A DNA stretch of 23,307 nucleotides from a virus, in the IMG/VR virus record IMGVR_UViG_3300030406_005149, positions 25,761 through 49,067 of that record; one strand, 5' to 3'. Below the pieces are notes generated by a model that saw nothing but the letters and a program-made list of their open reading frames with translations, ran no database searches and was not told the origin of the DNA. Below, piece by piece: positions 1 through 23,307 of the stretch (the first letter of the stretch is position 1; every line of letters starts with the position of its first letter). The position numbers and the translations under genes are program-made.

Positions 1-322
1 CTAACCATTTAACATTTGAATTATACATAGTGCGTCTAATATCTAAGTTATCAGCACAACATACAACTAAATCATATCCTTTCAATTGATTAGCAGTTAG
101 AACAGGATAAGGATTAGCAGATACATTATATCTTTCATCCATTACATCAACCTTTTTCTTTTCAATATCTTCTTTAGTAAAGTTTTGATATGTGATATTC
201 TTTTCCTCAACAATGTCGGGGTCATATACAGTAATATCATATATTCCTACTTTATCCAAAAGCGGTATCAGAAAACTTCCAATTCCACCTGCACCAATTA
301 TCATTACATTTCTTTTACTCAT
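1..322 (-). CDS. ThiF/MoeB/E1-like adenylyltransferase (3' end beyond window)
   Basis: About 107 residues from the start are visible; the gene runs off the left edge. The N-terminus reads MSKRNVMIIGAGGIGS, a Rossmann nucleotide-binding loop (GAGGIGS at residues 10-16). It is followed by a strand ending YDPD (the ribose-contacting Asp region), then VEEKNITYQ, which matches the D-x-V-x-x-x-N-x-x-x-Q pattern of E1/ThiF/MoeB enzymes, and later YDLVVCCADNLDIRR, which matches the conserved 'D.vv.a.Dn...R' strand. In known relatives this domain adenylates the C-terminal glycine of a beta-grasp carrier such as ThiS, MoaD or ubiquitin. The start overlaps the end of the TFB-like gene by 8 bases, so the two are probably co-transcribed. 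The catalytic Cys region and any C-terminal domain are outside the window. A beta-grasp gene on the same strand at 7877-8104 is a possible substrate. The family is clear; the pathway is not. Confidence 0.85.
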   Translation of the reverse strand, partial: MSKRNVMIIGAGGIGSFLIPLLDKVGIYDITVYDPDIVEEKNITYQNFTKEDIEKKKVDVMDERYNVSANPYPVLTANQLKGYDLVVCCADNLDIRRTMYNSNVKWL

Positions 323-944
323 TTCTTCTCACTTTCCTTAAGTTTCTTTTCAATCTTGGCAAACTAACTCCAAATTTTTTACACACTTGTTTTTGAGTAT
401 ATGGTGTGTATTCATATACATATGCGGCAATAATGCCTCTTGTTAATGTTTGAGTTTCATTCCACATTTTACACGCTTCAGAAACTTTCTCACATTCGAT
501 TTCCATATTAGATAAAAACTCGTCAATATCATTTATACCAAACACTCCAGAATTAGAATAATGTCTTGCAATCTTTTTTGCTAATCTTGAAACTCTTGTT
601 TCTTTACAACCTAAGAATTTACAGTAGGTTCGCATATTTGCTGGTTTATTTAAATCTCTCATTGTGTAATATAATATAGCCACAGCCCTTTCAGCACTAT
701 CATAACTATAATACAAATTAGTATAAGAAATATATTTGTCATTTTTAATAACTTCATCTCTATCTTCAATCTCGTATTCATTTAATAACAAAGTTAAATC
801 ATTTACTACTACCTTTTTATTAGGTAGAATATCATTAACCTCATATATTCTATAAGCCTGAATACAACCACAAACTGAACAAACAGGAAGATTAATTTCT
901 TTGTTTAAGTTCAGGTGCTTCGACTGACAATTTACACACGGCAT
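315..944 (-). CDS. TFIIB/TFB-like archaeal transcription initiation factor
   Basis: A 209-residue protein. An N-terminal zinc ribbon is formed by C3-x2-C6 and C22-x2-C25; because the first Cys is residue 3, this start must be right. Two cyclin-like helical repeats follow. The first contains AERAVAILYYTMRDLNKP, close to the 'aA.lY.acR' helix of TFB. The second contains RGIIAAYVYEY, then the helix-turn-helix YTQKQVCKKFGVSLPRLKRN near residues 180-200, which matches the BRE-contacting HTH of TFB repeat 2. Cellular TFB is about 300 residues, so this is a compact version with a short linker. In archaea TFB bridges the TATA-binding protein, the BRE and RNA polymerase; a virus-encoded copy may redirect the host polymerase to viral promoters. 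It overlaps the upstream 415-residue gene by 53 bases, which is unusually long, but both reading frames look genuine. Confidence 0.82.
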   Translation of the reverse strand: MPCVNCQSKHLNLNKEINLPVCSVCGCIQAYRIYEVNDILPNKKVVVNDLTLLLNEYEIEDRDEVIKNDKYISYTNLYYSYDSAERAVAILYYTMRDLNKPANMRTYCKFLGCKETRVSRLAKKIARHYSNSGVFGINDIDEFLSNMEIECEKVSEACKMWNETQTLTRGIIAAYVYEYTPYTQKQVCKKFGVSLPRLKRNLRKVRRNE

Positions 945-2139
945 CCCAATCCAACCTTATATCTTCTTGATTAATTTGATGCTCTTGAATATATCGCCTA
1001 ACAGTAGAAACTAATTTAACAAGCATAGTATCATTCATACAAGCAAATGCTCTCGCAGCAAATTGGTCGCCAACAGAAGCACCACTTGAAAGATTATCAA
1101 TACAAATCGGTCCTGCCCAATAAGGTTCTTTATCAGTATTATTTATTACATTAGGAATTACAGGATTTACATTTTCGGTATTTCTTGTAGTTAGAACATA
1201 TGTGCTCACATCTTGAATACCTCTCTTAGATTGATTATCTACAATCATCCAATCAGCATATTTACCACGAACAAACATAGCCAAAACATCTTCACCGTTT
1301 CTTGAATAAACACCTTTTGTAACTACATCGTATTTCTTAACCATATCATTAAACAATTCCATAGCCCTTTGTTCAGCCAAATCGCTTCTCCTATTTTGCT
1401 TCAAAAATTCTTTCATAATTTTAACTTGAGCAGGAGTGGCTTTTTCGCCAACAGTTCTAAACCATAATTCAGCAGGTGAAACCATATACCACTTACCCGT
1501 TCTTTTATTATAAAGATAGGAATTGATAAAAGTATTCAAATCTCTTGTCTTAATTTCTCCCCATACACCGCTACTAATTTCAAGTGCATAGTTATCCTCA
1601 GCAATTCTCATCAAAGACAAACGGGTATTTCTTTCTTTAACACCTTCATTTGTCCTTTCAAAGAATTTGTATGGTACTCTATTTTCCATAGCATAAGATA
1701 CATTTTCAGGAACATAGATACATCTAAAGAAATAATCATCTAATGCTTCTTGTGCTTCTTCTCCTTCTCCATTAATATAAGCGGAACGCATAATGGTTCT
1801 ACTAATGGCTTTCATGATAGTATCAAGATTAGCAAACTCACCATTTGCCATATATCTATTACCTACCTTTCTCATGTTAATAAGATACTTACAATTACCT
1901 ACTCTCATAAAGATACTTGACTTCTCGCTTGTTCTAACAAGATGATTTACTCTTAGTGTATTCTTAAGAGCATTGTGAATACTCTCAATTGTAGGTTCTT
2001 TTGAAATATTTTGGCGTTGTCTTTGTGCCCAAATATCAATTGTTCTATCTCTCATAAATGCTGATGATGTTAGTTTAGTTTCTAAGATAGAGTTTCTATC
2101 ATCACTTGCATGTCTAATTCTAAATACTGCTTCTCCCAT
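892..2139 (-). CDS. conserved-looking protein of unknown function, 415 aa
   Basis: I do not recognise this protein. It is mixed alpha/beta, soluble, and has no signal peptide or membrane segment. A basic, aromatic middle part (YLYNKRTGKWYMVSPAELW, near residues 209-227) is followed by an Arg/Glu-rich helical stretch. The C-terminal third has several predicted strands, then WAGPICIDNLSSG and a long helix with FACMNDTMLVKLVSTVRR. The 'P-I-C-I-D-N-L' Cys followed by a helix loosely recalls the catalytic segment of E2 ubiquitin-conjugating folds. It sits just upstream of the TFB and ThiF genes, but the similarity is too weak to assign. A purine-rich site (GGAGA) lies before the ATG, within the end of the preceding gene. 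The stop lies 53 bases inside the TFB-like gene. Confidence 0.75.
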   Translation of the reverse strand: MGEAVFRIRHASDDRNSILETKLTSSAFMRDRTIDIWAQRQRQNISKEPTIESIHNALKNTLRVNHLVRTSEKSSIFMRVGNCKYLINMRKVGNRYMANGEFANLDTIMKAISRTIMRSAYINGEGEEAQEALDDYFFRCIYVPENVSYAMENRVPYKFFERTNEGVKERNTRLSLMRIAEDNYALEISSGVWGEIKTRDLNTFINSYLYNKRTGKWYMVSPAELWFRTVGEKATPAQVKIMKEFLKQNRRSDLAEQRAMELFNDMVKKYDVVTKGVYSRNGEDVLAMFVRGKYADWMIVDNQSKRGIQDVSTYVLTTRNTENVNPVIPNVINNTDKEPYWAGPICIDNLSSGASVGDQFAARAFACMNDTMLVKLVSTVRRYIQEHQINQEDIRLDWDAVCKLSVEAPELKQRN

Positions 2140-3339: not shown

Positions 3340-3585
3340 TCACTCCATTTCTGAATTAAACAGTTGCTGTTCTAAATATCCATCACACAATTGGTTTAAT
3401 TTTTCGGCTAAACTTTGTGTAATTCCAGGAATTGTACTTCTATTCAAACTAAGCCAAATAGTATGTGCTCGGTTTAGTACAATTACACAACCATTATCTG
3501 TTTCGTTCCTTTTAATTACCACAGGTGGTAAATCTTCGCTCTCTATCAATCTAAATTCTACTGCTTTCTTTCCTTTCATTTGCAT
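3340..3585 (-). CDS. small hypothetical protein, 81 aa
   Basis: Unrecognised. The ATG at 3585 is chosen over a GTG at 3594 because GGAGTGA lies 5 bases upstream of it, the same arrangement as the next gene downstream. The protein begins MQMKGKKAVEFRLIESEDLP, with predicted strands then helices. A hydrophobic stretch containing VIVLNRAHTIWLSL suggests a beta strand rather than a membrane segment. Its stop lies within the leader of the 397-residue gene, so translation is probably coupled. Confidence 0.6.
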   Translation of the reverse strand: MQMKGKKAVEFRLIESEDLPPVVIKRNETDNGCVIVLNRAHTIWLSLNRSTIPGITQSLAEKLNQLCDGYLEQQLFNSEME

Positions 3586-3590
3586 TTCAA

Positions 3591-3806
3591 TCACTCCATA
3601 TTCATTAAGTGTGTTAGTGGGTCTTGCTTCAATGTTTGCTTACTCAATAAAATATGAGGAAACTTAGATAGCAACATTGGTACTACCTTATTCCAATCAA
3701 TTTCATTATCGTACTGCTTTGTCCAAACGCTACCGTTTGATTTCAAAGAAGTTACCCTTATCACTTCATATTTTTCTTCGCTTTCATAATCCTTGCTTTC
3801 GCTCAT
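3591..3806 (-). CDS. small hypothetical protein, 71 aa
   Basis: Unrecognised. It begins MSESKDYESEEKYEVIRVTS and is acidic at the N-terminus. A middle part reads NGSVWTKQYDNEIDWNKVVP, with a helical Leu-rich end. An AGTGAT ribosome-site-like sequence precedes the ATG. It is the first gene after a 74-base gap downstream of the ribonucleotide reductase. The stop overlaps the leader of the next gene in a TATGGAGTGATTGA context that recurs at the end of that gene. Confidence 0.6.
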   Translation of the reverse strand: MSESKDYESEEKYEVIRVTSLKSNGSVWTKQYDNEIDWNKVVPMLLSKFPHILLSKQTLKQDPLTHLMNME

Positions 3807-3880: not shown

Positions 3881-5740
3881 TTAGATTTCACAAACTCCAC
3901 CTGCACAAGCAATTTCGCCCTGCAAGTCTGTATTATCTTCTGTTTCCTTAACTTGAGTCAAGTCAATAGAAGTCAATGAATCCATCATTTCTTCATATTT
4001 ACCTCTTAAAATAGTTTCAAACGGTGCTTGAACATAAGTACCACCATCATAAGGTAAAACAGATAGCCCATTGTAGAATTTTCTATTATTCCACATCCAT
4101 TCTCCAACTTCATCCCATTCAAATTTGCGAATAGAAATTGTTGCTGATACATTATGAGTATTCATACCTGTATTATGTCCTGTATTTACCCACTTTGTTG
4201 CGATATATTTTACCCTTCTAAGTAAATCAATTGCTGATTCATCTCTTGTAGTAGCCCCTTTAGGTGCTTTTTGTGGTATAGAAATTACCGCAGTATCATG
4301 AGGTCTAAATTGTTCATCTTCTATAATATTAGGATGGTTTTCTACAAGGTAATTATAAATCGCTTCATTCTTACCGACTCTAATCCTTCTAATATAATAT
4401 TCATCATGCCAAGCGTGAATACCTGATGAAGTTCCTAAAACACAAGATGTAGTTCCAGCAGGTTTAACACAAGTAATTCTTGCGGCAGGATTTATACCAA
4501 TCTCTTTTGCAATTAACTCATTTACTTCCTTTGCTAAATTAGCCGCCTCTTCAACATTTAATCCTTTCAACTTATTAGATGCAATTCCTGTCATACTAAC
4601 TCCAAGTAAAGCATCTTTTTCAGTAGTCTTTTTCCATACTTCTCTAAGATAATGAAAATCTGTATAACCTGCTTGTAAGGTAGCAAGTAAGGTAGCGGCA
4701 GCAACTCGTGAGTTTAAATCTTCTTGACTAACAATATCACTTACATTTACTTCAACAAGATTACAAAATTGATTAGGTCTCAGGGCTATTTCACAACAAG
4801 GATTAGTGCCCCAATCTTTATCATTACTAAAATAAATTCCAGGCTCACCAGAACCTGATTCTTCAATTCTTTTCCATAATTTCATAAAGTAATCTTTATC
4901 AATTCTACTTCTAATAAGAACGGCTGAATTATTAGCCCTTCCTCTTTGTGGATTTAACTCCCACCAATTACCAGATTTAGCAGTTATCATATCCATATCA
5001 TCTGCACTAAATAAAGAAATTAAAGCGGCTCGTCTAATACCACCTGCTAAAACTGCATCAGCAATATGACACATAATATCATGTGCTTGAATTGGAGTAA
5101 TTTTCTCTCCTGTTGGAATGTCTTTTAGTATTCCTTCTACTTTAACTAAACATTCTTTTAGTGGCTGAGGTCCTGGCGCTTTTCCTCCAGAAGTAATTAA
5201 TCTTTCACCTTTTGCTCTAATATCAGAAAAGTCAAAATCAGGTGTTGATGAAAGCCTACCAAAATATGACTTAATTAAAACCTTAATTGCGTCAGCCCAA
5301 CCTTCAATAGAATCTCCAATAAGATACCTTCTTTTTCTATTAGGGTTAGGGTGTTGAATTACAGGTAATTTGTCAATATGGTTATACTGTACTGAATATC
5401 CTACGCCTGTTCCACCTAACAATAAAAACATTGACTCAGAAAAAGCAGCAATATTGTCAATTGGTAAATAAGCACAATTGTAAATTCTATTAGGTGCTAC
5501 TTCAATCGGCTTTCCTCCAAACTGAAGACTTCTCATAGATGGTAGAATCTTTTTATTGAATACATATTCAGCATAGGTTTGTGTTATTTGACTTTCTAAA
5601 TGAGGATACTTTTTCAAATGCATCTCCATGTTTCTATAACATAACTCAGCCCATGTTTCTCTTCTTTCTTTTTCAGGTAAATACTTTGCATACTTCATAT
5701 GTACCGTTATATCACTCAAAATCTTACTCGCTTTATTCAT
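3881..5740 (-). CDS. nrdJ: adenosylcobalamin-dependent (class II) ribonucleotide reductase
   Basis: A 619-residue protein that reduces ribonucleotides to deoxyribonucleotides using a B12-generated thiyl radical, supplying DNA precursors in the cytoplasm. Signatures: YNCAYLPID with C89 (first redox Cys), LLLGGTGVGYSVQ (residues 107-118), NPCCEIALRP with N313, C315 and E317 (the N-x-C-x-E active site), QFCNLVEVN with C326 (redox partner of C89), GTTSCVLGTSSGIHAWHDEY, and a C-terminal CAGGVCEI whose C612/C617 pair would shuttle electrons. The layout resembles the monomeric ribonucleoside-triphosphate reductase (Lactobacillus leichmannii type, 739 residues). This one is shorter, with no N-terminal ATP cone. 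The ATG overlaps the upstream stop as ATGA. Class II enzymes need no oxygen and no second subunit, which suits a virus. All expected catalytic residues are present. Confidence 0.95.
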   Translation of the reverse strand: MNKASKILSDITVHMKYAKYLPEKERRETWAELCYRNMEMHLKKYPHLESQITQTYAEYVFNKKILPSMRSLQFGGKPIEVAPNRIYNCAYLPIDNIAAFSESMFLLLGGTGVGYSVQYNHIDKLPVIQHPNPNRKRRYLIGDSIEGWADAIKVLIKSYFGRLSSTPDFDFSDIRAKGERLITSGGKAPGPQPLKECLVKVEGILKDIPTGEKITPIQAHDIMCHIADAVLAGGIRRAALISLFSADDMDMITAKSGNWWELNPQRGRANNSAVLIRSRIDKDYFMKLWKRIEESGSGEPGIYFSNDKDWGTNPCCEIALRPNQFCNLVEVNVSDIVSQEDLNSRVAAATLLATLQAGYTDFHYLREVWKKTTEKDALLGVSMTGIASNKLKGLNVEEAANLAKEVNELIAKEIGINPAARITCVKPAGTTSCVLGTSSGIHAWHDEYYIRRIRVGKNEAIYNYLVENHPNIIEDEQFRPHDTAVISIPQKAPKGATTRDESAIDLLRRVKYIATKWVNTGHNTGMNTHNVSATISIRKFEWDEVGEWMWNNRKFYNGLSVLPYDGGTYVQAPFETILRGKYEEMMDSLTSIDLTQVKETEDNTDLQGEIACAGGVCEI

Positions 5741-7739: not shown

Positions 7740-7753
7740 AATGAAACCTCAAT

Positions 7754-7792
7754 AAAAAAATCCCGTTTTGATAAAGCAGACGGGAAACTGCT
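7754..7792 (-). terminator. intrinsic terminator with possible pseudoknot
   Basis: On the minus strand TCCCGT (7766-7761 strand complement) pairs with ACGGGA around a 13-nt loop, directly followed by seven Ts (7760-7754). The loop contains CTGCT, which can also pair with AGCAG just outside the stem (7775-7779 with 7788-7792), giving an H-type pseudoknot. It lies after the beta-grasp gene and before the 124-residue gene, so it either ends the upstream transcript or acts as an attenuator. Confidence 0.6.
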
Positions 7793-7876: not shown

Positions 7877-8104
7877 TCAATAATCGTCATCATCAATGGT
7901 ACAAGAACCACCAACAATTGCTTGAGTCAATACGACTTCATCAACCGCATTAAAATCAATGTTAGCAATATCTTCTCTTGAAACCAATTCACCATCAACA
8001 TAAGCCCAATGAGTTGGGTGGTCGATAATTTGGTCTAATGCTTCACTTGCACTAAGAGTTAGTTCTGTGTGTCCTGTTTCATTCAAAATTGTAATCTTTA
8101 CCAT
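7877..8104 (-). CDS. ThiS/MoaD/ubiquitin-like beta-grasp protein with C-terminal tail after GlyGly
   Basis: A 75-residue protein. The ATG at 8104 is used because GGAGAT lies 7 bases upstream; an ATG three codons earlier overlaps that site. The pattern is strand MVKITILNETGHTELTLS, helix SEALDQII, strand WAYVDGELVSREDI, turn NIDFNAVDEVVL, last strand TQAIVGG. It follows the ThiS order closely ('..vNg..v.r........dG D.v.i...vgGG'). In ThiS, MoaD and ubiquitin the free terminal GlyGly is adenylated by a ThiF/E1 enzyme. Here GG (residues 65-66) is followed by nine residues, SCTIDDDDY, so activation would need trimming, as for ubiquitin precursors, or the protein no longer conjugates. A ThiF-like gene lies at 1-322 on the same strand. 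No JAB peptidase is visible in the window. A housekeeping sulfur-carrier role is the alternative. Confidence 0.72.
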   Translation of the reverse strand: MVKITILNETGHTELTLSASEALDQIIDHPTHWAYVDGELVSREDIANIDFNAVDEVVLTQAIVGGSCTIDDDDY

Positions 8105-8123
8105 TCTTTTCATCTCCTTTTAT

Positions 8124-15103: not shown

Positions 15104-15613
15104 ATGAGTTGGTTTAATATCCTTAAAGCCGACTTGTATGATGCTTCAAATTATAGCAGTAGAAAAGATGACCCTTCTTTTTATTGGGAAAGACCTAAAT
15201 TATTATTTGAACAAAATCCTGATAGGAATTTAGGATATATTATGTCTTATTGGTATCTTCAATATAAGGATGAAATAGATGATTGGGTTAATAGTACAGA
15301 TTTAGAAGGTAAATTTATTGATACAGGTGATAGGTCAAAAACATATAAACATTCAGTTGGTGGCTTTTTCATTTTTAGGAGAAATAAACTACAAAATGAA
15401 ATCAATAATAATAAAGAATTATTAGAAAGGTATAATATACCTACAACAGTAGAAGGATTTGTAGAGGCAGTTGCTACAAAGGCATTTCATAACACAGATA
15501 TTTACAATTTTATAGCAAGACAATTTGGAGATAAGTATAAAAGAAAGGATAATCCGTTGAAAACACATAGGTTAATGGCTAATTTTAAAGGTAGGCAAAG
15601 GGGGTTTGAATAA
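15104..15613 (+). CDS. tagged protein 1 (MSWFNILK), 169 aa, unknown
   Basis: First member of the array. Its N-terminus MSWFNILKADLYDASNYSSR carries the shared peptide (Trp at 3, Ile-Leu-Lys at 6-8). The body is unlike its neighbours: aromatic-rich (DPSFYWERPKLLFEQNPDRN), with YIMSYWYLQYKDEIDDWVN and a basic helical end. No known domain. It is probably leaderless, given the promoter box 20-30 bases upstream. It overlaps the next small gene by one base (TAATG). Confidence 0.75.
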   Translation: MSWFNILKADLYDASNYSSRKDDPSFYWERPKLLFEQNPDRNLGYIMSYWYLQYKDEIDDWVNSTDLEGKFIDTGDRSKTYKHSVGGFFIFRRNKLQNEINNNKELLERYNIPTTVEGFVEAVATKAFHNTDIYNFIARQFGDKYKRKDNPLKTHRLMANFKGRQRGFE

Positions 15614-15720
15614 TGACAAGATGTAAATTGTTAGATGAATGGTTTGATGCTAAGTCTAAAGAATTAGATAAGGCTGAGAAAAAAGATGGGAAAGATTTAA
15701 TCACAGGTGAAAAGAAATGA
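15613..15720 (+). CDS. miniprotein, 35 aa, untagged
   Basis: A short frame starting in TAATG and ending in an ATGA overlap with the metalloprotease gene. It begins MTRCKLLDEWFDAKSKELDK, is highly charged and probably one helix. It lacks the shared leader. Junction geometry on both sides is the main support; it may mainly couple translation. Confidence 0.5.
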   Translation: MTRCKLLDEWFDAKSKELDKAEKKDGKDLITGEKK

Positions 15721-16475
15721 CATGGTTTGAAGTCCTTAAGAGTTTGACTCCATCAAATATGGATGATATTCTTGATGACTTAGAAGATGTTATGGGTTTT
15801 TACAAAGGTGGTAGATATGAATATTGGACTCCTGAAATAGATAGACTTCATAATGATTTACAAGATTTATTAGATATAGCAGGTCCGACAACAAAAGAAG
15901 TATTAGCAAAATATGATTCAGTTATTTCTAAAATTTTAGATAGAGTGCAGGTAGTCTATAATACTGATAAGAGTAGAATTGAAGAACATTATGATTTAGA
16001 AGATTTTAACGATATGTTAAATGAATTAAGTTCAAAAATGATGACGGCTGATTTTAGATATGAACCAAGACAAGCGATGGGATATTATAATCCTGAAGAT
16101 GATGCAGTAGTAGTTAATTTGGCTACCAAAAAACACCCGATGATGATACAGTATTATTATGAACAACAAGAAAAAATATATGATACTTTGGCTCATGAGT
16201 TTGGACATCAAGCATCAAAAATATTAGATTACCCGTATAAAGATAAATCCGCAGGTATATCAGAAGGTAATAATTTAATGGAAGAGTATATTGCATATAC
16301 AGTACAAATGCCTGATAATCCTAATGGTAGATTATTAGCAGTACTTAGACATCCTCAAGTAAAAGCAAAAGCGAGAAGAAATCCAGCAACAATGAAAATG
16401 TATAATAAGATAAAGGAAAAATTAATTGATGAAGAACCTTACTTATTACAAGAATATGGGAGATATATATTATGA
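15717..16475 (+). CDS. tagged protein 2 (MTWFEVLK): putative zinc metalloprotease, 252 aa
   Basis: After the leader MTWFEVLKSL come acidic helices, then the active-site helix DTLAHEFGHQASKILDYP with HEFGH at residues 160-164 (His160, His164 and catalytic Glu161). A downstream acidic helix NLMEEYIAYTVQMP has Glu189/Glu190, a candidate third zinc ligand. This H-E-x-x-H...E layout is that of gluzincins; 'E-x-x-x-A-x-x-x-x-MP' recalls the ImmA/IrrE (M78) arrangement. Substrate unknown. Because it carries the same leader as its neighbours, it may travel with them and could process them, as a head-maturation protease would; that is inference. ATGA overlaps on both sides place it in one operon. Confidence 0.75.
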   Translation: MTWFEVLKSLTPSNMDDILDDLEDVMGFYKGGRYEYWTPEIDRLHNDLQDLLDIAGPTTKEVLAKYDSVISKILDRVQVVYNTDKSRIEEHYDLEDFNDMLNELSSKMMTADFRYEPRQAMGYYNPEDDAVVVNLATKKHPMMIQYYYEQQEKIYDTLAHEFGHQASKILDYPYKDKSAGISEGNNLMEEYIAYTVQMPDNPNGRLLAVLRHPQVKAKARRNPATMKMYNKIKEKLIDEEPYLLQEYGRYIL

Positions 16476-17089
16476 CATGGGAAGAAATATTAAAAATTAA
16501 AAATAATCAAGGCGAAAATCTAATTGTAAGAGATGTAGATAATTTTGTTGAAAGATTAAGAGCAGCAGTTAGAGCATCAGCAAGTCAATACTATGGTAAA
16601 ATTACTCAAGCCATGAGAGAGGGAGAGGATAGAGTATCTAATATCAATGTTAGAGAAAGATATATTTCAGATGAGATATTACAAATTAGGATTTCATATA
16701 GACATAAAGATACTAAGCAAAGGGAAGTATTTGAAATTATTATGATGGAGGATGAATCAGGTGATTATTACTTTGAAAGATTACTCGGACCATCTGTAAC
16801 TTTAACAAGAGATAGTGTAGTAAGTAGTGAAACTAAACTAATTACTATTGTTGCAGATGCAGTAGCAAGAAATGTAAAAGAAAATATTAGAGAAACAAAA
16901 GATTTGAGAGATACTTCAGGTGAGGATAGACAAACTGCTGAAGAAACTATTGCTGAAGTTGAAAGAGCAAATCCAGGATATTTATACATTAATCAAAAAA
17001 TGTATAAGATTGAAGATTTAAAAGAACAAGCAACAAAAGAGGGCATAAGTTATGATGCACTTCTTAGAAGATTAGGAAGGAATGTTTAA
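16472..17089 (+). CDS. tagged protein 3 (MTWEEILK), 205 aa, unknown
   Basis: Leader MTWEEILKIKNNQGENLIVR. Then a helical part with VERLRAAVRASASQYYGKIT, a beta-rich middle (ISDEILQIRISYRHKDTKQR, FEIIMMEDESGDYYFERLLG) and a helical acidic stretch. The end (YINQKMYKIEDLKEQATKEG) has a small helical-domain look. No family recognised. Start and stop overlap its neighbours by 4 bases and 1 base. Confidence 0.75.
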   Translation: MTWEEILKIKNNQGENLIVRDVDNFVERLRAAVRASASQYYGKITQAMREGEDRVSNINVRERYISDEILQIRISYRHKDTKQREVFEIIMMEDESGDYYFERLLGPSVTLTRDSVVSSETKLITIVADAVARNVKENIRETKDLRDTSGEDRQTAEETIAEVERANPGYLYINQKMYKIEDLKEQATKEGISYDALLRRLGRNV

Positions 17090-17574
17090 TGTGGGAAGAT
17101 ATTTTAAAGAGATTTGGTCCAACACAAACACCTAAACCATCTTTAGGTTCTAAAGTTAAAACGGAAACTAAGGTTAGTACAGATGCTGAACCATTACCTG
17201 AAGATGAGGATGTAAAATATAAAGTGTTTGTAACTGAACAGTATAATTCGCCAGGAATGAGAGGTGAGTGGTTTCATTACCCTAAAGAATTATTTGATAC
17301 AAGACAAGATGCGTATGATGGAATAGAAAGAATAATGTATGAAAAAGGAAATCCTCGACCTTGGACTGTTGAAGGAAATTTATTTGGTGGACATGCTGTT
17401 GTATATGATGGTATAGCGATGATGATAAATGCACCTTCTTATAAATTTATTATTGTAGAAGATGGAGAAGAATTGCCCGACCCTATTAATTATAATCCTA
17501 AAGTAGATTGGACTTCAGGAAGTAGAGTATTGGATAGATTAGATGGGAAAAGATACGATGAAAGTAGGTATTAA
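17089..17574 (+). CDS. tagged protein 4 (MWEDILK) with variant acidic module, 161 aa
   Basis: Leader MWEDILKRFGPTQTPKPSLG, then a divergent second module (STDAEPLPEDEDVKYKVFV, around residues 30-50) that keeps D-x-E-P-L-P-acidic but lacks R-Q-K-L-R and the following Cys. The body is different from the paralogous family that follows: YNSPGMRGEWFHYPKELFDT and aromatic strands. Unknown function. It may show that the second module is a portable linker, separate from the Cys-containing body. Confidence 0.75.
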   Translation: MWEDILKRFGPTQTPKPSLGSKVKTETKVSTDAEPLPEDEDVKYKVFVTEQYNSPGMRGEWFHYPKELFDTRQDAYDGIERIMYEKGNPRPWTVEGNLFGGHAVVYDGIAMMINAPSYKFIIVEDGEELPDPINYNPKVDWTSGSRVLDRLDGKRYDESRY

Positions 17575-17576
17575 TT

Positions 17577-18257
17577 ATGTGGGAAGATTTGTTAAAGGTG
17601 CAGGTTTCTGTTGCAAGACAGAAATTAAGAACAGATGATGAACCTTTACCAGATAATGAAGATGAGGATGATTGCCTTGAACGAATAATTGATTATATAG
17701 ATAAATTTGCTATGTGGAAACCAAAATTAGAATGGGAATTAGTAAATGGAAGTGAGGAAGAGTTAAATTATATTGAAGAAAATTTAGTATCAGAATTAGG
17801 TGTAAGAGGAAATGCATCAACATTTTATGCATATATTGAATTTGGTAATCCGATAATTTTTGATTACATGGGTCATTATCATCATGGTATAAGACTTAAT
17901 ATATATGACCGTAGTTTAAAAGACTTACTTTTTGAAGAAGCGTGTTTAGTATTAGCCGAATTAGAAAATTGGGTATCTAAAATTAATACTTCACATGAGC
18001 AACTCGATAAAATAATAGAAGGAACACCTTATACTGTTACTCATTCAAGTAAATATAGAGCAAGGTTAAGAAATAATGGAGATATGTTACAACCTATGAA
18101 AACGAGTAGGTTTGTAGTTTTTAAAACTAATACTCGTGAAATAATATTAGGTTTTAATATTGATATTCTTGATTTTCATCTTCCTTTTAAAAATGCTACC
18201 GAACCAATGAAATATAAAAGTAATTTTAGAGAAATAAAATTAGGTGATTGGCTATGA
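17577..18257 (+). CDS. tagged protein 5 (MWEDLLK + RQKLRTDDEPLPD), 226 aa
   Basis: Leader MWEDLLKVQVS, then ARQKLRTDDEPLPDNEDEDD (residues 13-32) and a Cys, then a helix and a strand-rich body (ASTFYAYIEFGNPIIFDYMG). A helix EEACLVLAELENWVSK and a second beta part follow. This is the first of six modules sharing the Arg-Gln-Lys-Leu-Arg/acidic block, although its body lacks the W-C motif of the others. Function unknown. GGTGAT for the next gene lies in its last codons. Confidence 0.75.
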   Translation: MWEDLLKVQVSVARQKLRTDDEPLPDNEDEDDCLERIIDYIDKFAMWKPKLEWELVNGSEEELNYIEENLVSELGVRGNASTFYAYIEFGNPIIFDYMGHYHHGIRLNIYDRSLKDLLFEEACLVLAELENWVSKINTSHEQLDKIIEGTPYTVTHSSKYRARLRNNGDMLQPMKTSRFVVFKTNTREIILGFNIDILDFHLPFKNATEPMKYKSNFREIKLGDWL

Positions 18258-18892
18258 ATTGGGAAGATATACTAAAGGTTCAGATTACTACTTCAAGACA
18301 GAAGTTGCGTACTGATAAAGAACCACTACCTGATGATGATGATGATGAATGTTTCCCTATTGTAGATAAAATATTTAGAGAAATTTTAAAACATGTGGTA
18401 ACTTTTCAAGGTAATACTTATGCTAATAAAAGAAATGTTCCCGTTGCAACAGTAGAGGCATTTTCAAGAAATTTATATGATGAAGACCAATGGTGTAAAA
18501 TATTAGCAGGATTTTCTGACTATGAACATCATAGTTTAACTATAATACATAGAAAACCTGAAGTTTTATACATGACCTCAAGATTTGATACAAAAGAAAC
18601 ATTTGGTGATGGACTAAAAGTACTTTTTAGATTTTATTTAGATAGAGAAAGAGATAATCCAGATGAGGATAAAGTAGAAATAGATATTAATATTTTTACT
18701 GCTCTTGATATTGATTCAAAATACCATGTGGCTCTTAGATTTTCGATGCCCGATTTAACCATAGGGGTTATGGAAGAATTAGAATTTATGCATGAGGCTA
18801 TCAAAAATACTATTGAAAGTAATGCAAAAGTATCTTTCCCAACCGACCCAACATTTATGAATAATATTAGAGAATTTACAAGGGGGATTTAG
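18254..18892 (+). CDS. tagged protein 6 (MNWEDILK + RQKLRTDKEPLPD), 212 aa
   Basis: The start at 18254 (ATGA overlap, GGTGAT five bases upstream) is preferred over an ATG two codons earlier, and it restores the leader exactly: MNWEDILKVQ. The second module is SRQKLRTDKEPLPDDDDDEC. The body contains YDEDQWCKILAGFSDYEHHS, with the family's W-C-[K/E]-x-L motif, then strands VLFRFYLD and a C-terminal helix. It is a paralogue of the products starting at 18894, 19364 and 20560. Confidence 0.78.
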   Translation: MNWEDILKVQITTSRQKLRTDKEPLPDDDDDECFPIVDKIFREILKHVVTFQGNTYANKRNVPVATVEAFSRNLYDEDQWCKILAGFSDYEHHSLTIIHRKPEVLYMTSRFDTKETFGDGLKVLFRFYLDRERDNPDEDKVEIDINIFTALDIDSKYHVALRFSMPDLTIGVMEELEFMHEAIKNTIESNAKVSFPTDPTFMNNIREFTRGI

Positions 18893-18893
18893 A

Positions 18894-19364
18894 ATGTGGA
18901 AAGATGTGTTAAAAAATCAAATACAAGTAGGTCGCCAAAAGTTAAGGTCTGACGACCAACCTCTTCCTGATGATGAAGAAGAGGATTGTAAAAGAAAGTT
19001 TATGTATTTAGATGCTATGATAGAGGCTAATACTAAGTATAAGAGTTATAGATTTATTAGGTTGGATAGAGTTCCAGATGAAATGTTTTGTAAATTTTTA
19101 GACTTTTTTAGAAATTTAAAAAAATATAGAATTGCTGTTAGGGTTAGTATAGATGATAGTGTGAGTTTATATTCCCGTAATAATATTATAAAAAGAACAG
19201 ATTGTGCATATTTAACCCATGTACCATCAGAAGATAAGATAATTATAGGATTTTTTTACGAAGGTGTATCAGACCAAGCAGGTTATGATGTTTATGAATT
19301 AGAAATATTTGATACTTTAGAACAATTTGATGAATTACTTAGCGTTATAGAGAGGTATGCCTAA
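18894..19364 (+). CDS. tagged protein 7 (MWKDVLK + RQKLRSDDQPLPD), 156 aa
   Basis: Leader MWKDVLKNQIQVG, second module RQKLRSDDQPLPDDEEEDC, then a short body with VPDEMFCKFLDFFRNLKKYR (family motif with F-C in place of W-C) and strands DKIIIGFFYEGVSD, then helix EQFDELLSVIERYA. It is the shortest family member. The segment IQVGRQKLR is identical to the one inside the next gene's second half, so the two are probably close relatives. Confidence 0.78.
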   Translation: MWKDVLKNQIQVGRQKLRSDDQPLPDDEEEDCKRKFMYLDAMIEANTKYKSYRFIRLDRVPDEMFCKFLDFFRNLKKYRIAVRVSIDDSVSLYSRNNIIKRTDCAYLTHVPSEDKIIIGFFYEGVSDQAGYDVYELEIFDTLEQFDELLSVIERYA

Positions 19365-20560
19365 TGTGGGAAGATATTATTAAAGTGCAGGTAAGCCAAG
19401 CAAGGCAAAAGTTAAGGTCTGATAATAATCCATTACCTGATGATGACGATGAAGATTGTTTTCAAAAATTTGATTATCTTGTTAGACAATTTCAAAAGAT
19501 GGGTAATATTATAGACCCTAATAAAACTTTATTATTAGATTTAGGTTATAGAGATTTTCTTACTCCTGAACAATGGTGTGAATTTTTAGAAACATTATCA
19601 TTTAATACTCATACAAGTGATGCTGGAAGGGTTTATGTTGCTGGACTCGGAGGTAAAGTTACATATAGAGGAACAAGTAAAGGTGAATTAATACCACCAA
19701 CAAAAAAAGATGTAAAATTATATTTTATCTGCGAACTACAATTACAAAATAATAGGTGTGTTCTTGAAGTAGAAATGGTAACGCCTGATGGTGATATGCC
19801 TAATGTATTTACAATGATGTTTGATGCTGAAGAAGGCTTTGGAAGCGCAGGTCAATCTTTTGATGAACAAATGTTATTTGATTGGTGGAGAAATGTAGCA
19901 CGATTCGCAAGAGAGTTAAGAAATTTTGAAAAAAGTGTATTGACACTAAATCCTAAAAGAGGTGATTTGATGGCAGATAGATTTTTATCCGCCATACAAT
20001 TACATGGGAGTAAGAAATTTGATTTCAAAAAGAGCCAAATTCAAGTAGGTCGTCAAAAATTAAGAACTGATGATGACCCATTACCCGATGAAGAAGATGA
20101 TAAAGACTGTGAACAATTATGGAGAGAAGCAGTAGAAGAAATTAAAGATTGGATTCAGCGTTATGATGACGACCAATGGTACACTCAAACTTCTTTTGAA
20201 GAACAAAGAGGGCAGGGTCAATCAATCTGTTATATGGCAAAACATAATAGTGATGTAGGTTTTGATATAAGTCTTAGATTTTATCATTATTTAGATACAC
20301 AATATCCATCCTCTAATGAATGGTTTTGTAAATTATTAGAAACAAGTGCTTTTTATGATTTTAGAAATGGGCAACATATAGTAGATGGTGGAGGAATCAA
20401 GACTAAAATTGGTGATTCTTATGGACATTCTATATCATGGTTTATCGCTTTAGGACAAGTAGGAAAAACTCGTGGCTTTAGAACAGGATTAGTTAGATTT
20501 TGTGGTGAATTAGAACATTTTGCAAGAGGCGTTATTGAAAGAAAAAGGAGGGAATTATAG
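19364..20560 (+). CDS. tagged protein 8, tandem fusion of two paralogues, 398 aa
   Basis: The first half has leader MWEDIIKVQVSQ, module ARQKLRSDNNPLPDDDDEDC, then TPEQWCEFLETLSF. The second half starts again near residue 226 with SQIQVGRQKLRTDDDPLPDE, Cys, then SSNEWFCKLLETSAF and a matching C-terminal helix. The join (about residues 195-225) contains an in-frame ATG at 19970 (residue 203), preceded by GGTGAT with three bases spacing. The second half could therefore also be made alone, without the leader (MADRFLSAIQLHGSKKF). It looks like a tandem duplication in which the second leader degraded and the stop was lost. Function unknown. Confidence 0.8.
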   Translation: MWEDIIKVQVSQARQKLRSDNNPLPDDDDEDCFQKFDYLVRQFQKMGNIIDPNKTLLLDLGYRDFLTPEQWCEFLETLSFNTHTSDAGRVYVAGLGGKVTYRGTSKGELIPPTKKDVKLYFICELQLQNNRCVLEVEMVTPDGDMPNVFTMMFDAEEGFGSAGQSFDEQMLFDWWRNVARFARELRNFEKSVLTLNPKRGDLMADRFLSAIQLHGSKKFDFKKSQIQVGRQKLRTDDDPLPDEEDDKDCEQLWREAVEEIKDWIQRYDDDQWYTQTSFEEQRGQGQSICYMAKHNSDVGFDISLRFYHYLDTQYPSSNEWFCKLLETSAFYDFRNGQHIVDGGGIKTKIGDSYGHSISWFIALGQVGKTRGFRTGLVRFCGELEHFARGVIERKRREL

Positions 20561-21342
20561 TGGATTGGGAAGATGTTATAAAAAAGAATCAAAAAACGAG
20601 TTATGGTATTCCAGCACAATCCTCATCAACAATTTTAACTAATAAACCAAGCACTTCCCTTAGAGGAAAATTAAGGTCGGACAATCAACCCTTACCTGAT
20701 GACGATGAAAATGAATGTTATGAATGGTTATTAGAGTTAAAAAGAATAATGTATGAACCTTATATTAAATCATTTAATAATATTTTTAGAATGAAAGATG
20801 CTCTATCTCAAGATGAAGATTTTTGGTGTGAAATAAAAAGAATGCTTGAAAATGAAAAAGAATATCATTTCTATGCAAAGGGCTTTACTGAATTTGGTTT
20901 AAATTATAATGAATATGGAAATTTGTGGGATTTAAATGTCTTTGGGCATAGTGGAAATGAACCTGAATTTAATATGGATATTTCTTTCGGTACAATACCT
21001 GAAGGCGAAGGAATGGAAACAAGATACCCTTATGTAATACCTTGGATTATGACTCAATATATTATTGTTTTACAAGCAGATGCCGATAAAGACATTAACT
21101 TACAAACAACTAAACATATTATTTTAGATGAATGGGAAAAAGAAATTAATAAAAATCTTGACAAATTTAATTTATTTTTTAACTATATAGGTAATAAAGA
21201 ATTACGACAAGAATTTTACTATAAATTAATAAGGGATGTTATCGAATATTTATACCAAAATCAAAAAGATAAGATTGAAGATGAATCGGTCTTTAATAGA
21301 GTGTACCACTATTTCATGAGTATAATTACTACTAAAATGTGA
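20560..21342 (+). CDS. tagged protein 9 (GTG start; MDWEDVIK + RGKLRSDNQPLPD), 260 aa
   Basis: Starts with GTG at 20560 in TAGTG overlap with the previous stop; GGAGGG lies upstream. The leader is MDWEDVIKKNQKTSY, followed by a Ser/Thr/Pro-rich insert of about 25 residues not seen in its relatives, then LRGKLRSDNQPLPDDDENEC and a body with EDFWCEIKRMLENEKEYHF. The insert between leader and module shows that the two are separable units. Its C-terminal part is a longer helical extension. Last of the run of paralogues. Confidence 0.77.
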   Translation: MDWEDVIKKNQKTSYGIPAQSSSTILTNKPSTSLRGKLRSDNQPLPDDDENECYEWLLELKRIMYEPYIKSFNNIFRMKDALSQDEDFWCEIKRMLENEKEYHFYAKGFTEFGLNYNEYGNLWDLNVFGHSGNEPEFNMDISFGTIPEGEGMETRYPYVIPWIMTQYIIVLQADADKDINLQTTKHIILDEWEKEINKNLDKFNLFFNYIGNKELRQEFYYKLIRDVIEYLYQNQKDKIEDESVFNRVYHYFMSIITTKM

Positions 21343-21348
21343 TAACTT

Positions 21349-21359
21349 TTAAATAGTAA
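21349..21359 (+). promoter_or_regulatory. TTAAATAGTAA promoter box, second copy
   Basis: Identical 11 bases to the box at 15074-15084, 31-41 bases before the ATG at 21390, in the only sizeable gap inside the array. It probably restarts transcription of the second half. Confidence 0.6.
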
Positions 21360-21389
21360 CTTTAAATTAAATTGTACTAAGGGATATTT

Positions 21390-21863
21390 ATGTGGGCTAA
21401 TATTCTAAAAGGTAAGGCTACCTCTCCACATAATAAAAGATATGTCTATAAACATGGCGTAACAGAAGACCAATTTTTATCAGCAGGTGGAGTTTTAGAA
21501 AGATTAAAAGATAGAGGTGGTAGAATGGCAGGTAATTTTACTACTACTTCTCTTGTATTTACACTCAAAGCATTAGAAAGAGATGGGTTAGTAGAATCTA
21601 AAGAAGATATAATTGCAAGTGAGGCTGGAGGAAGAAGAAATTTTGTTTTCAGAAAATTACCTGAACCTATTAATAAATCTGATTGGAAAGAAATGGTTGA
21701 TGAAATGGTAACCGAAAATACAGATTTTGAAGAAATGTATAAAAAAATTATTAGCAAATTAAAGTTTAATTCACCATCAAGAAAAGAAATTAACGAATAC
21801 CTTAGAGAAAATTATAAGAGAAATTCTCTATGGTCTAACTTATGGAGTAGGGAAGAACAATGA
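21390..21863 (+). CDS. tagged protein 10 (MWANILK) with winged-helix-like domain, 157 aa
   Basis: Leader MWANILKGKATSPHNKR. Residues about 25-90 read FLSAGGVLERLKDRGGRMAG, then NFTTTSLVFTLKALERDGLV, then RRNFVFRKLPEP: helix, helix, recognition helix and beta wing, as in MarR/PadR-like winged helices. A helical tail (residues 95-157) includes FNSPSRKEINEYLRENYKRN. It lacks the acidic second module. It could be a DNA-binding protein delivered or localised with the others. The end overlaps the next start by four bases. Confidence 0.7.
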   Translation: MWANILKGKATSPHNKRYVYKHGVTEDQFLSAGGVLERLKDRGGRMAGNFTTTSLVFTLKALERDGLVESKEDIIASEAGGRRNFVFRKLPEPINKSDWKEMVDEMVTENTDFEEMYKKIISKLKFNSPSRKEINEYLRENYKRNSLWSNLWSREEQ

Positions 21864-22150
21864 CATGGATGACAATTTTAAAAACAATTAGAAGAAAACC
21901 ACAAATAAGGTCAGCAGGTGGGAGTAAAGCCGATGACTTATTAGAAGTAGATGATAGACAACCTGATGTCAATGAATCATTTGAAGATGTATATGATAAT
22001 AAAACTGAAGAAGAATTAGCAATGGCTACTAAACAGGATATTATTACAGAAATTGAATATTATCTAAAAGGTCTATCTAAGGAAAAATTACTTGAAATTT
22101 TAGTAAAAACTAAGGGAGATATTAGATTAAAAGATGACCCATTTGAGTGA
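21860..22150 (+). CDS. tagged protein 11 (MTWMTILK), 96 aa
   Basis: Leader MTWMTILKTIRRKPQIRSAG, in which the acidic positions of W-E-D are replaced (W-M-T). An acidic linker (DDLLEVDDRQPDVNESFEDV) and a C-terminal helical part (TEIEYYLKGLSKEKLLEILV) follow. The linker is acidic but is not the P-L-P module. Unknown function. The ATG overlaps the preceding stop as ATGA. Confidence 0.7.
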   Translation: MTWMTILKTIRRKPQIRSAGGSKADDLLEVDDRQPDVNESFEDVYDNKTEEELAMATKQDIITEIEYYLKGLSKEKLLEILVKTKGDIRLKDDPFE

Positions 22151-22155
22151 TTTAT

Positions 22156-22479
22156 ATGAGATGGAATGACATTATAAGAAAAAATGATGCAACTAAAGCA
22201 TTATTAGAAATTATAATGGAAGATTTAAAAGTTACAATACCACATCATATAGACCAATCATTACAATTAAATAGAATGATGGGCTTCGATATAAGTGATA
22301 AAGCCATGCAACAAATTTGGAGAGATACATGGGAAAATAATGCAAGAACAGTTGTTGGTATGGATTCAGAATGGGTAAGACAATTTTTAGGTAGTGGTTA
22401 TACAATGGATGAAGTTAATTGGAATGAAATTTCAAAAAGAGTTATAGCCGAATATGATAGAATTTTTGATATGATGTGA
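22156..22479 (+). CDS. tagged protein 12 (MRWNDIIRK), 107 aa
   Basis: The start at ATG 22156 gives MRWNDIIRKNDATKALLEII; a GTG three codons earlier would overlap the previous gene and displace the leader. The leader is looser here (R for the final K). The body is helical: VTIPHHIDQSLQLNRMMGFD and AMQQIWRDTWENNARTVVG. It resembles a small helical structural protein; there is no family match. A short intergenic gap precedes the next gene. Confidence 0.68.
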   Translation: MRWNDIIRKNDATKALLEIIMEDLKVTIPHHIDQSLQLNRMMGFDISDKAMQQIWRDTWENNARTVVGMDSEWVRQFLGSGYTMDEVNWNEISKRVIAEYDRIFDMM

Positions 22480-22483
22480 TATT

Positions 22484-22732
22484 ATGTGGAAAGATATTTT
22501 AAAGGCTAAACTCAAAGCAGTTGAGAATAAGAAGTATAAAGTCTATGAAAGATTTATTAAAAAAGTTTTGAAAGATGAAGGCGGTGCAGTAGGAATGCAA
22601 GGTTTCATAGACGCTGGAAAAGAATTTAAAGGCTTTGATGAAAGATATTTAAAATATGTCATTAGTGATATATTAGACCATAAAGATTGGATGAAAGAAC
22701 ATGAACATGGCGATTATATTTTGGAGGAATAA
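22484..22732 (+). CDS. tagged protein 13 (MWKDILK), 82 aa
   Basis: Leader MWKDILKAKLKAVENKKYKV, then a small helical domain (FIKKVLKDEGGAVGMQGFID, YLKYVISDILDHKDWMKE). The order of short helices with a Gly-rich turn resembles a winged-helix fold, but I cannot confirm it. The last codons contain GGAGGAA, which serves as the ribosome site of the next gene. Confidence 0.7.
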   Translation: MWKDILKAKLKAVENKKYKVYERFIKKVLKDEGGAVGMQGFIDAGKEFKGFDERYLKYVISDILDHKDWMKEHEHGDYILEE

Positions 22733-22734
22733 TC

Positions 22735-23307
22735 ATGTCATGGGAGGATATTTTAAAAACTAAAATAAGAAATATTAAAGATATTGTAAGATTTGGTAAA
22801 GATTATGCTACTGAAGATATGTATGAAAGTATGATTATTTCTGATGAAGAATATGAATCATTAAATCGTAAAGATAAACAAAAATATCATACAAGATTTG
22901 AAAATCTTATAAGAAGATATGATGATGAAGGAACGCTTAGAGAAGAATTAAATTTTCATGCAAAAATGAGAAGTAGATTAACACAAAATTCTAATTTACC
23001 TACATATAATAAAATTGATAATATTAGAAACAAAGAGGAACAATTCAAGATAAGAGGGGGCATGAACAGAAAGCAAAAGGATATAAGACCTGAAGCAACT
23101 ATAAATGAAATGATTGTAGATTATTTTAAAATTTATGATAATATGTATGGGCGCAATCCTACTTTATCAGAAATTGAAGAAGAAGAAGGAAGACCCCTAA
23201 CTGTGGATGAAATTGAATCATTCAAATTGTATAATGAGCGTTTTATAAAAAAGAGTTGGGAAAATATCATAAAAAGAAAAAAGCGCAAAACAAGAAAGCG
23301 CAAAACA
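22735..23307 (+). CDS. tagged protein 14 (MSWEDILK), partial, with a second copy of the leader motif inside
   Basis: The reading frame is open to the window edge (191 codons). It begins MSWEDILKTKIRNIKDIVRF, with a helical charged body, ending with KKSWENIIKRKKRKTRKRKT at residues about 172-191. The S-W-E-N-I-I-K at residues 174-180 is the leader motif again, followed by a strongly basic stretch encoded by two exact 12-base copies (23281-23292 and 23296-23307). This may be another fused unit, or a tail that starts the next domain. The true C-terminus is not visible. Confidence 0.72.
   Translation, partial: MSWEDILKTKIRNIKDIVRFGKDYATEDMYESMIISDEEYESLNRKDKQKYHTRFENLIRRYDDEGTLREELNFHAKMRSRLTQNSNLPTYNKIDNIRNKEEQFKIRGGMNRKQKDIRPEATINEMIVDYFKIYDNMYGRNPTLSEIEEEEGRPLTVDEIESFKLYNERFIKKSWENIIKRKKRKTRKRKT

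Follow-up and report, generated by a model that had tools for sequence, protein, structure and literature searches.

A candidate E2-less ubiquitin-like system encoded by large, mainly marine archaeal viruses

A group of large, mainly marine archaeal viruses, represented by hundreds of contigs, carries linked genes for a small ThiS-like protein with an invariant GG (Ubl), an E1-like activating enzyme of minimal size and a JAMM peptidase. We lean towards the view that these genes specify a virus-encoded ubiquitin-like system that operates without an E2 and is most like archaeal SAMPylation. The evidence comprises the genes themselves, a GG that never varies although the tail behind it is dispensable, an unbroken JAMM motif, an E1 fold that retains the ATP-site Asp/Asn/Lys and an invariant loop cysteine, and the strict linkage of the set.

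The window, the whole stretch of 23,307 nucleotides that was analysed, corresponds to bases 25761–49067 of a 49,067-base virus record. The Ubl gene lies on its minus strand at 7877–8104 and encodes a putative ThiS-like beta-grasp carrier or modifier precursor of 75 residues from the ATG at 8104, or 78 residues from an in-frame ATG at 8113, three codons upstream; an MVK or MIK start is universal among the relatives. The protein ends in AIVGG followed by SCTIDDDDY, as a sequence-only reading of this DNA had described. Gly65-Gly66 (7907–7912, minus strand) is the predicted mature C-terminus, and the JAMM peptidase is predicted to cleave off the nine-residue cap (7880–7906, minus strand), which is of low confidence and without secondary structure in the model. 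Twelve Ubl relatives came from a first scan, and an alignment scan of IMG/VR confirmed 131, with 80 retained. Strong purifying selection acts on the core (dN/dS mostly 0.03–0.19), which, with the 131 relatives and the invariant GG, confirms the open reading frame as a real gene. When the window's Ubl was searched alone, no match was found in Pfam, PHROGs or NCBIfam. Between the Ubl gene and the next gene (window 7750–7787) lies a terminator-like element, in which an inverted repeat (CCCGT...ACGGG) precedes a T-run when read along the direction of transcription.

The sequence-only reading had proposed that the GG and the tail be followed among relatives, and that the loss of the GG would speak against it. 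The GG is retained in all 84 distinct sequences, in which the Asn, Gly and His of NxTGHT and the Thr-His-Trp of HPTHW are also invariant or nearly so. The tail is variable, with 0–9 residues behind the GG and most often 2; in 73 distinct proteins its length is 0 (n = 7), 1 (14), 2 (48), and 4, 7, 8 or 9 (one each). C, S, N or Q predominate at its first position and Y or C at its second. The near-identical contig L001 has the same tail as the window, and close relatives end in SCISDDD or CEDFDDGF, so that the long acidic tail is typical of a single small cluster of closely related sequences. An invariant GG, a free tail and a constrained core together are, at the level of sequence, the pattern of a precursor that matures at the GG.

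The AlphaFold model of the Ubl (mean pLDDT 70, low confidence from residue 62 on) has the order beta-beta-alpha-beta-beta-beta. Its Foldseek neighbours are mostly beta-grasp proteins, including ThiS (1f0z, 1zud and 2lek) and ubiquitin variants, none of them individually significant. The Ubl profile scores 21.2 against E. coli ThiS, compared with 9.8±2.1 for 200 shuffles in which the GG was kept (0/200 as high), and the alignment extends through the GG of both proteins. These three lines support, with moderate confidence, the ThiS-like strand order that had been noticed from the letters, and a beta-grasp fold appears likely. The ThiS family PF02597 is matched by 2 of 29 Ubl members (best E 0.0047), short of the family cut-off. 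The Pfam family of PinA, the T4 Lon inhibitor, is matched by 10 of the 29 (best E 1.4e-4, also below the cut-off), and T4 PinA itself scores 24.7 against the Ubl profile, compared with 11.2±2.2 for shuffles. These scores would suit a lookalike with a regulatory or structural role, such as an inhibitor that binds a host protease or pathway in the manner of the PinA family, or a decoy that engages the host's SAMP enzymes. We regard such a role as improbable: the PinA match is confined to the middle of the Ubl, PinA lacks the GG, and a pure inhibitor leaves both the invariant GG and the universal linkage to E1 and JAMM unexplained. The sub-threshold PinA resemblance in the middle part was noted in the L031, L050, L052 and L121 proteins.

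The E1-like gene (ThiF fold) occupies 2–322 of the window on the minus strand, where the first 107 of its 185 codons are present; the remainder lies beyond a 10-N gap to the left of the window. A ThiF/E1-like gene on the same strand at the left edge had been recognized in the sequence-only reading, and it is genuine (Pfam ThiF, E about 1e-17: 9.5e-18 and 3.1e-17). The contig itself continues beyond the scaffold gap (G000:C1:25751-25760) that interrupts the gene, and in contig L001 the gene runs on to 185 codons. Ten-N scaffold gaps that break genes are also found at L014 701-710, 2982-2991 and 3895-3904.

The intact E1 relatives are minimal enzymes of 185 residues that fold like ThiF, UBA5 and Cap2. 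Foldseek matches of the model (pLDDT 89) are Cap2 (best), UBA5, MccB and ThiF, with a TM-score of up to 0.81 to ThiF; MoeB joins these four when profile matches are included. NCBIfam SAMP E1 UbaA is also among the matches (E 2.2e-8, far below the UbaA equivalog cut-off), and PADLOC gives the protein an E1-E2 assignment. The Rossmann GxGGxG and the ATP-site Asp/Asn/Lys/Asp that define the ThiF superfamily are present, and D34, D36, N42, K57, D91 and cysteines 88, 89 and 141 are invariant in 107 distinct sequences (L086 numbering). In a global profile alignment that is weak in this region, Cys141, located in a low-confidence loop preceding the last long helix, aligns with the cysteine of the MoeB TCVEAG motif, which is where E1 enzymes usually have their cysteine. 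Arg14 and Arg73 of MoeB are active-site arginines. The viral E1 starts after the Arg14 segment, has Tyr45 at the position of Arg73 and is devoid of CxxC zinc pairs; on these sequence grounds its full E1 activity is uncertain. A collection of phages contained only distant ThiF proteins (from Flavobacterium and Bacteroides phages) and no Ubl relative; the single phage neighbourhood inspected differs from the one described here, and phage systems of this kind were set aside.

The JAB/Mov34 peptidase for which the sequence-only reading had proposed a search is present outside the window. Its gene (G000:C1:23522-23959, minus strand) lies 1.8–2.2 kb to the left and encodes a JAB/JAMM protein of 146 residues carrying HTHPFGQAYFSGTD. 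The catalytic Glu and HTHP-x6-S-x2-D are intact in all 106 relatives, in agreement with the JAMM/MPN+ signature (Glu + H-x-H-x7-S-x2-D). Pfam Prok-JAB is matched with E 4.1e-4, below the gathering cut-off, and the profile matches the AMSH-LP/AMSH/Sst2 deubiquitinases (E 0.0015). Where the Ubl already ends at the GG, the peptidase is retained with its motif intact (15/15 loci), which suggests a second job beyond uncapping, such as deconjugation.

Ubl, E1 and JAB genes occur together in 131 of the 162 loci with any match; the remaining loci appear, from their lengths and positions, to end too near the genes for judgement. To avoid the circularity of counting only from Ubl and E1 matches, linkage was recounted from X414, a neighbour without a known tie to Ubl biology. 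Among X414-seeded loci with sufficient flank, E1 is present in 79/79, JAB in 76/76 and Ubl in 60/60, always on a single strand, and the order Ubl>X414>TFB>E1>JAB is kept in all 57 five-gene loci. Certain contigs are counted at two or more loci and relatedness is common among them, which means that the totals do not represent independent lineages. The strict linkage partly reflects a conserved genome core. The Ubl gene lies 2.4–8 kb from E1, in the same strand cluster and separate from the E1 operon, which counts against the favoured SAMP-like reading. That operon probably comprises X414, TFB and E1, because in the window the TFB gene overlaps the E1 start codon and X414 overlaps TFB. The TFB-like transcription factor (315–944, minus strand; TFIIB zinc ribbon and core) is always directly upstream of E1, and X414 (892–2139, minus strand) is always upstream of both. 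X414, a conserved protein found in 130/130 loci, has a single invariant Cys in the motif G-P-I-C-I-D-N (72/72), with no convincing match in Pfam and none in the PDB. It is a possible partner of the module. A more ambitious proposal, in which a self-sufficient Ubl conjugation and deconjugation core is central to infection, with X414 as a new transfer enzyme or obligatory target and possible action on transcription through the adjacent viral TFB, seems to us unlikely.

Other genes recur in the same neighbourhood. An 84-residue protein (VEFRxV...ELPPIVI...NxxHxIWLSLxR; window 3340–3594, minus strand) is found in 123/130 loci, and relatives of an adenosylcobalamin-dependent (class II) ribonucleotide reductase (window 3881–5740, minus strand) in 89/130. 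Loci L062 and L084 are two different copies of the module, ~93 kb apart on one contig (IMGVR_UViG_3300021958_000021; 184,733 bases), as if two related viruses had been joined or co-assembled.

In the SAMP-like mechanism that we favour, the Ubl would be made with a short cap behind the GG, and the viral JAMM peptidase would cleave after the GG. The 185-residue E1 would then adenylate the exposed glycine with ATP, and the Ubl would probably be held on the invariant crossover-loop cysteine of E1. Transfer to lysine residues, on proteins of the virus or of the host, would follow without an E2, and the JAMM peptidase could later remove the tag. We infer each of these chemical steps, as well as a protein conjugate rather than a thiocarboxylate as the product. 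The set shares with SAMP-type systems a protein of beta-grasp fold (at moderate confidence) with a GG end and an E1 that is cognate by fold and linkage. Archaeal SAMP/UbaA/HvJAMM1 is similarly built of a ThiS/MoaD-like modifier ending in GG, one E1 and a JAMM peptidase, with no E2; here, in contrast, the set is virus-encoded and part of a viral core, the Ubl is capped, and the E1 has 185 residues instead of about 270 and no CxxC zinc pairs. SAMP systems function without an E2, and SAMP precursors of Caldiarchaeum subterraneum are cut by a JAMM peptidase (CsSAMP/CsJAMM) (PMC6043591). The CsUb precursor of the same organism loses nine residues behind its GG to the JAMM protease CsRpn11 (PMC6043591), the same length of fragment as predicted to be removed here; CsUb, however, is ubiquitin-like in sequence and is accompanied by an E2 and an E3, neither of which was found for the viral Ubl.

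The sequence-only reading had suggested a conjugation or sulfur-transfer pathway in an archaeal virus. Much of that suggestion survives, namely a beta-grasp carrier or modifier with a tail behind its GG, a linked E1, a JAMM peptidase and a virus of archaeal type; the E2 whose search it had proposed was not found with PF14461 or PF00179, models whose controls were weak (the UQ_con control gave no match, and those for PF14461 all stayed below the cut-off). Its argument from the tail, read as more typical of a modifier than of a sulfur carrier, does not stand. When one or two residues follow the GG of a sulfur carrier, a protease is typically required, for example the JAMM protease QbsD in thioquinolobactin synthesis, and PtmS2 and PtmS3 have MV and C, respectively, after the GG (PMC6006322). 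Capped sulfur carriers therefore exist, and the nine-residue tail is ruled out as proof of a modifier.

Sulfur delivery is accordingly the chief competitor, which we judge a real though distinctly less probable explanation. The JAMM peptidase would uncap the Ubl, E1 would adenylate it and a host sulfurtransferase would make the thiocarboxylate, as in systems of the QbsE/QbsD or Urm1/TtuB type, with the sulfur destined for a tRNA, cofactor or nucleotide needed in infection. The viral caps CY, SC, NC, C and SV resemble the known carrier caps MV and C (PMC6006322), a short cap and a linked JAMM protease occur together as in QbsE/QbsD and PtmS2/PtmS1 (PMC6006322), the Ubl is nearest to ThiS in sequence and fold among the carriers compared, and archaeal ThiS-family genes are most often tied to tRNA modification (PMC2948915). 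QbsE/QbsD and PtmS2/PtmS1, however, serve a biosynthetic pathway, and in the virus no pathway that would accept the sulfur was seen. The viral E1 lacks a rhodanese domain, and no rhodanese (PF00581), PAPS reductase (PF01507) or PP-loop ATPase/thiolase (PF01171) was detected in 27 virus records, in searches whose positive controls matched, although a viral carrier could rely on sulfurtransferases of the host. The retention of JAMM in cap-less loci also points away from a pure uncapping role, though JAMM can free sulfur-carrier adducts as well. A separate carrier for the ThiF pathway, which would have undercut the sequence-only reading, did not appear: the 27 virus records hold no second ThiS-family protein above the family cut-off, a search of limited power as the Ubl itself escapes that model. 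SAMP-like protein modification is preferred to sulfur delivery because systems of the SAMP and Urm1 type operate without an E2 and are able to serve both functions.

Ubl and JAB proteins also have a phage precedent in the tail-assembly proteins of the lambda TAPI/TAPK kind (PMC1779556), where JAB processing would belong to virion assembly. Such a role is very improbable here, as the genes lie in a replication and nucleotide cluster while the long gene run on the right is on the other (plus) strand, the JAB has no NlpC/P60 domain, and E1 is always present whereas TAPI systems lack one. Bacterial Bil and CBASS Cap2/Cap3 systems resemble the viral set in E1 fold (Cap2 is the best Foldseek match, and PADLOC calls E1-E2) and in having a JAB; the viral set differs in having no E2 domain, no CD-NTase seen nearby, a Ubl that is a separate small gene, and a setting in an archaeal virus instead of a bacterial defence island. 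Tail assembly, thiamine synthesis, Mo-cofactor synthesis and CBASS/Bil defence were each rejected as their other genes are absent.

The PolB of the virus is closest to those of haloarchaeal tailed viruses, and inspection of the genome identified open reading frames for PolB, RFC, PCNA, an AEP primase, a ligase and TFB; relatives have GroEL/GroES. Magrovirales, viruses of Poseidoniales, have genomes of 90–110 kb with their own replisome (PolB/PCNA/RFC/AEP primase/ligase), TFB, GroEL/GroES and a PolB related to Druskaviridae (PMC10768690). The gene content and PolB neighbours fit this group, and thus the virus is probably magrovirus-like, with Poseidoniales as the presumptive host on the same sequence grounds. 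One contig of the same archaeal virus group (L164, NZTP01000016.1) is placed in a bacterial MAG (Altibacter), probably by a binning error. At the right of the window (15104–23307, plus strand), fourteen consecutive genes share an almost identical N-terminal peptide, M(x)W-x-x-[ILV]-[IL]-[KR], followed in several by RQKLR[TS]D[DNK]xPLPD[DE]. Judged by sequence, the shared peptide resembles a delivery or head-targeting signal, for which the T4 capsid targeting sequence is the comparison.

According to passages of the RaFAH report, MoeB/ThiF is among the most prevalent auxiliary genes of archaeal viruses, with ubiquitination suggested as its role (PMC8276007). As described in those passages, it is very likely the same E1 gene as here; they make no mention of a Ubl, a JAMM gene or a fixed module (PMC8276007). 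The prevalence of ThiF in archaeal viruses is thus already published, and the Ubl, the JAMM peptidase and the complete module are provisionally the new part, with no report of them found in a literature search that covered part of the magrovirus literature.

A complete Ubl, E1 and JAMM set that is never missing where this can be checked would amount to a viral post-translational or sulfur-transfer pathway of core rank. The parts are defined well enough for in vitro tests, with a mature Ubl of 66 residues, an E1 of 185 residues and a small JAMM peptidase, and the unusually small E1 offers a handle on Ubl conjugation without an E2. These uncultured viruses apparently enter the cell equipped with a pathway of their own for protein tagging or sulfur delivery.
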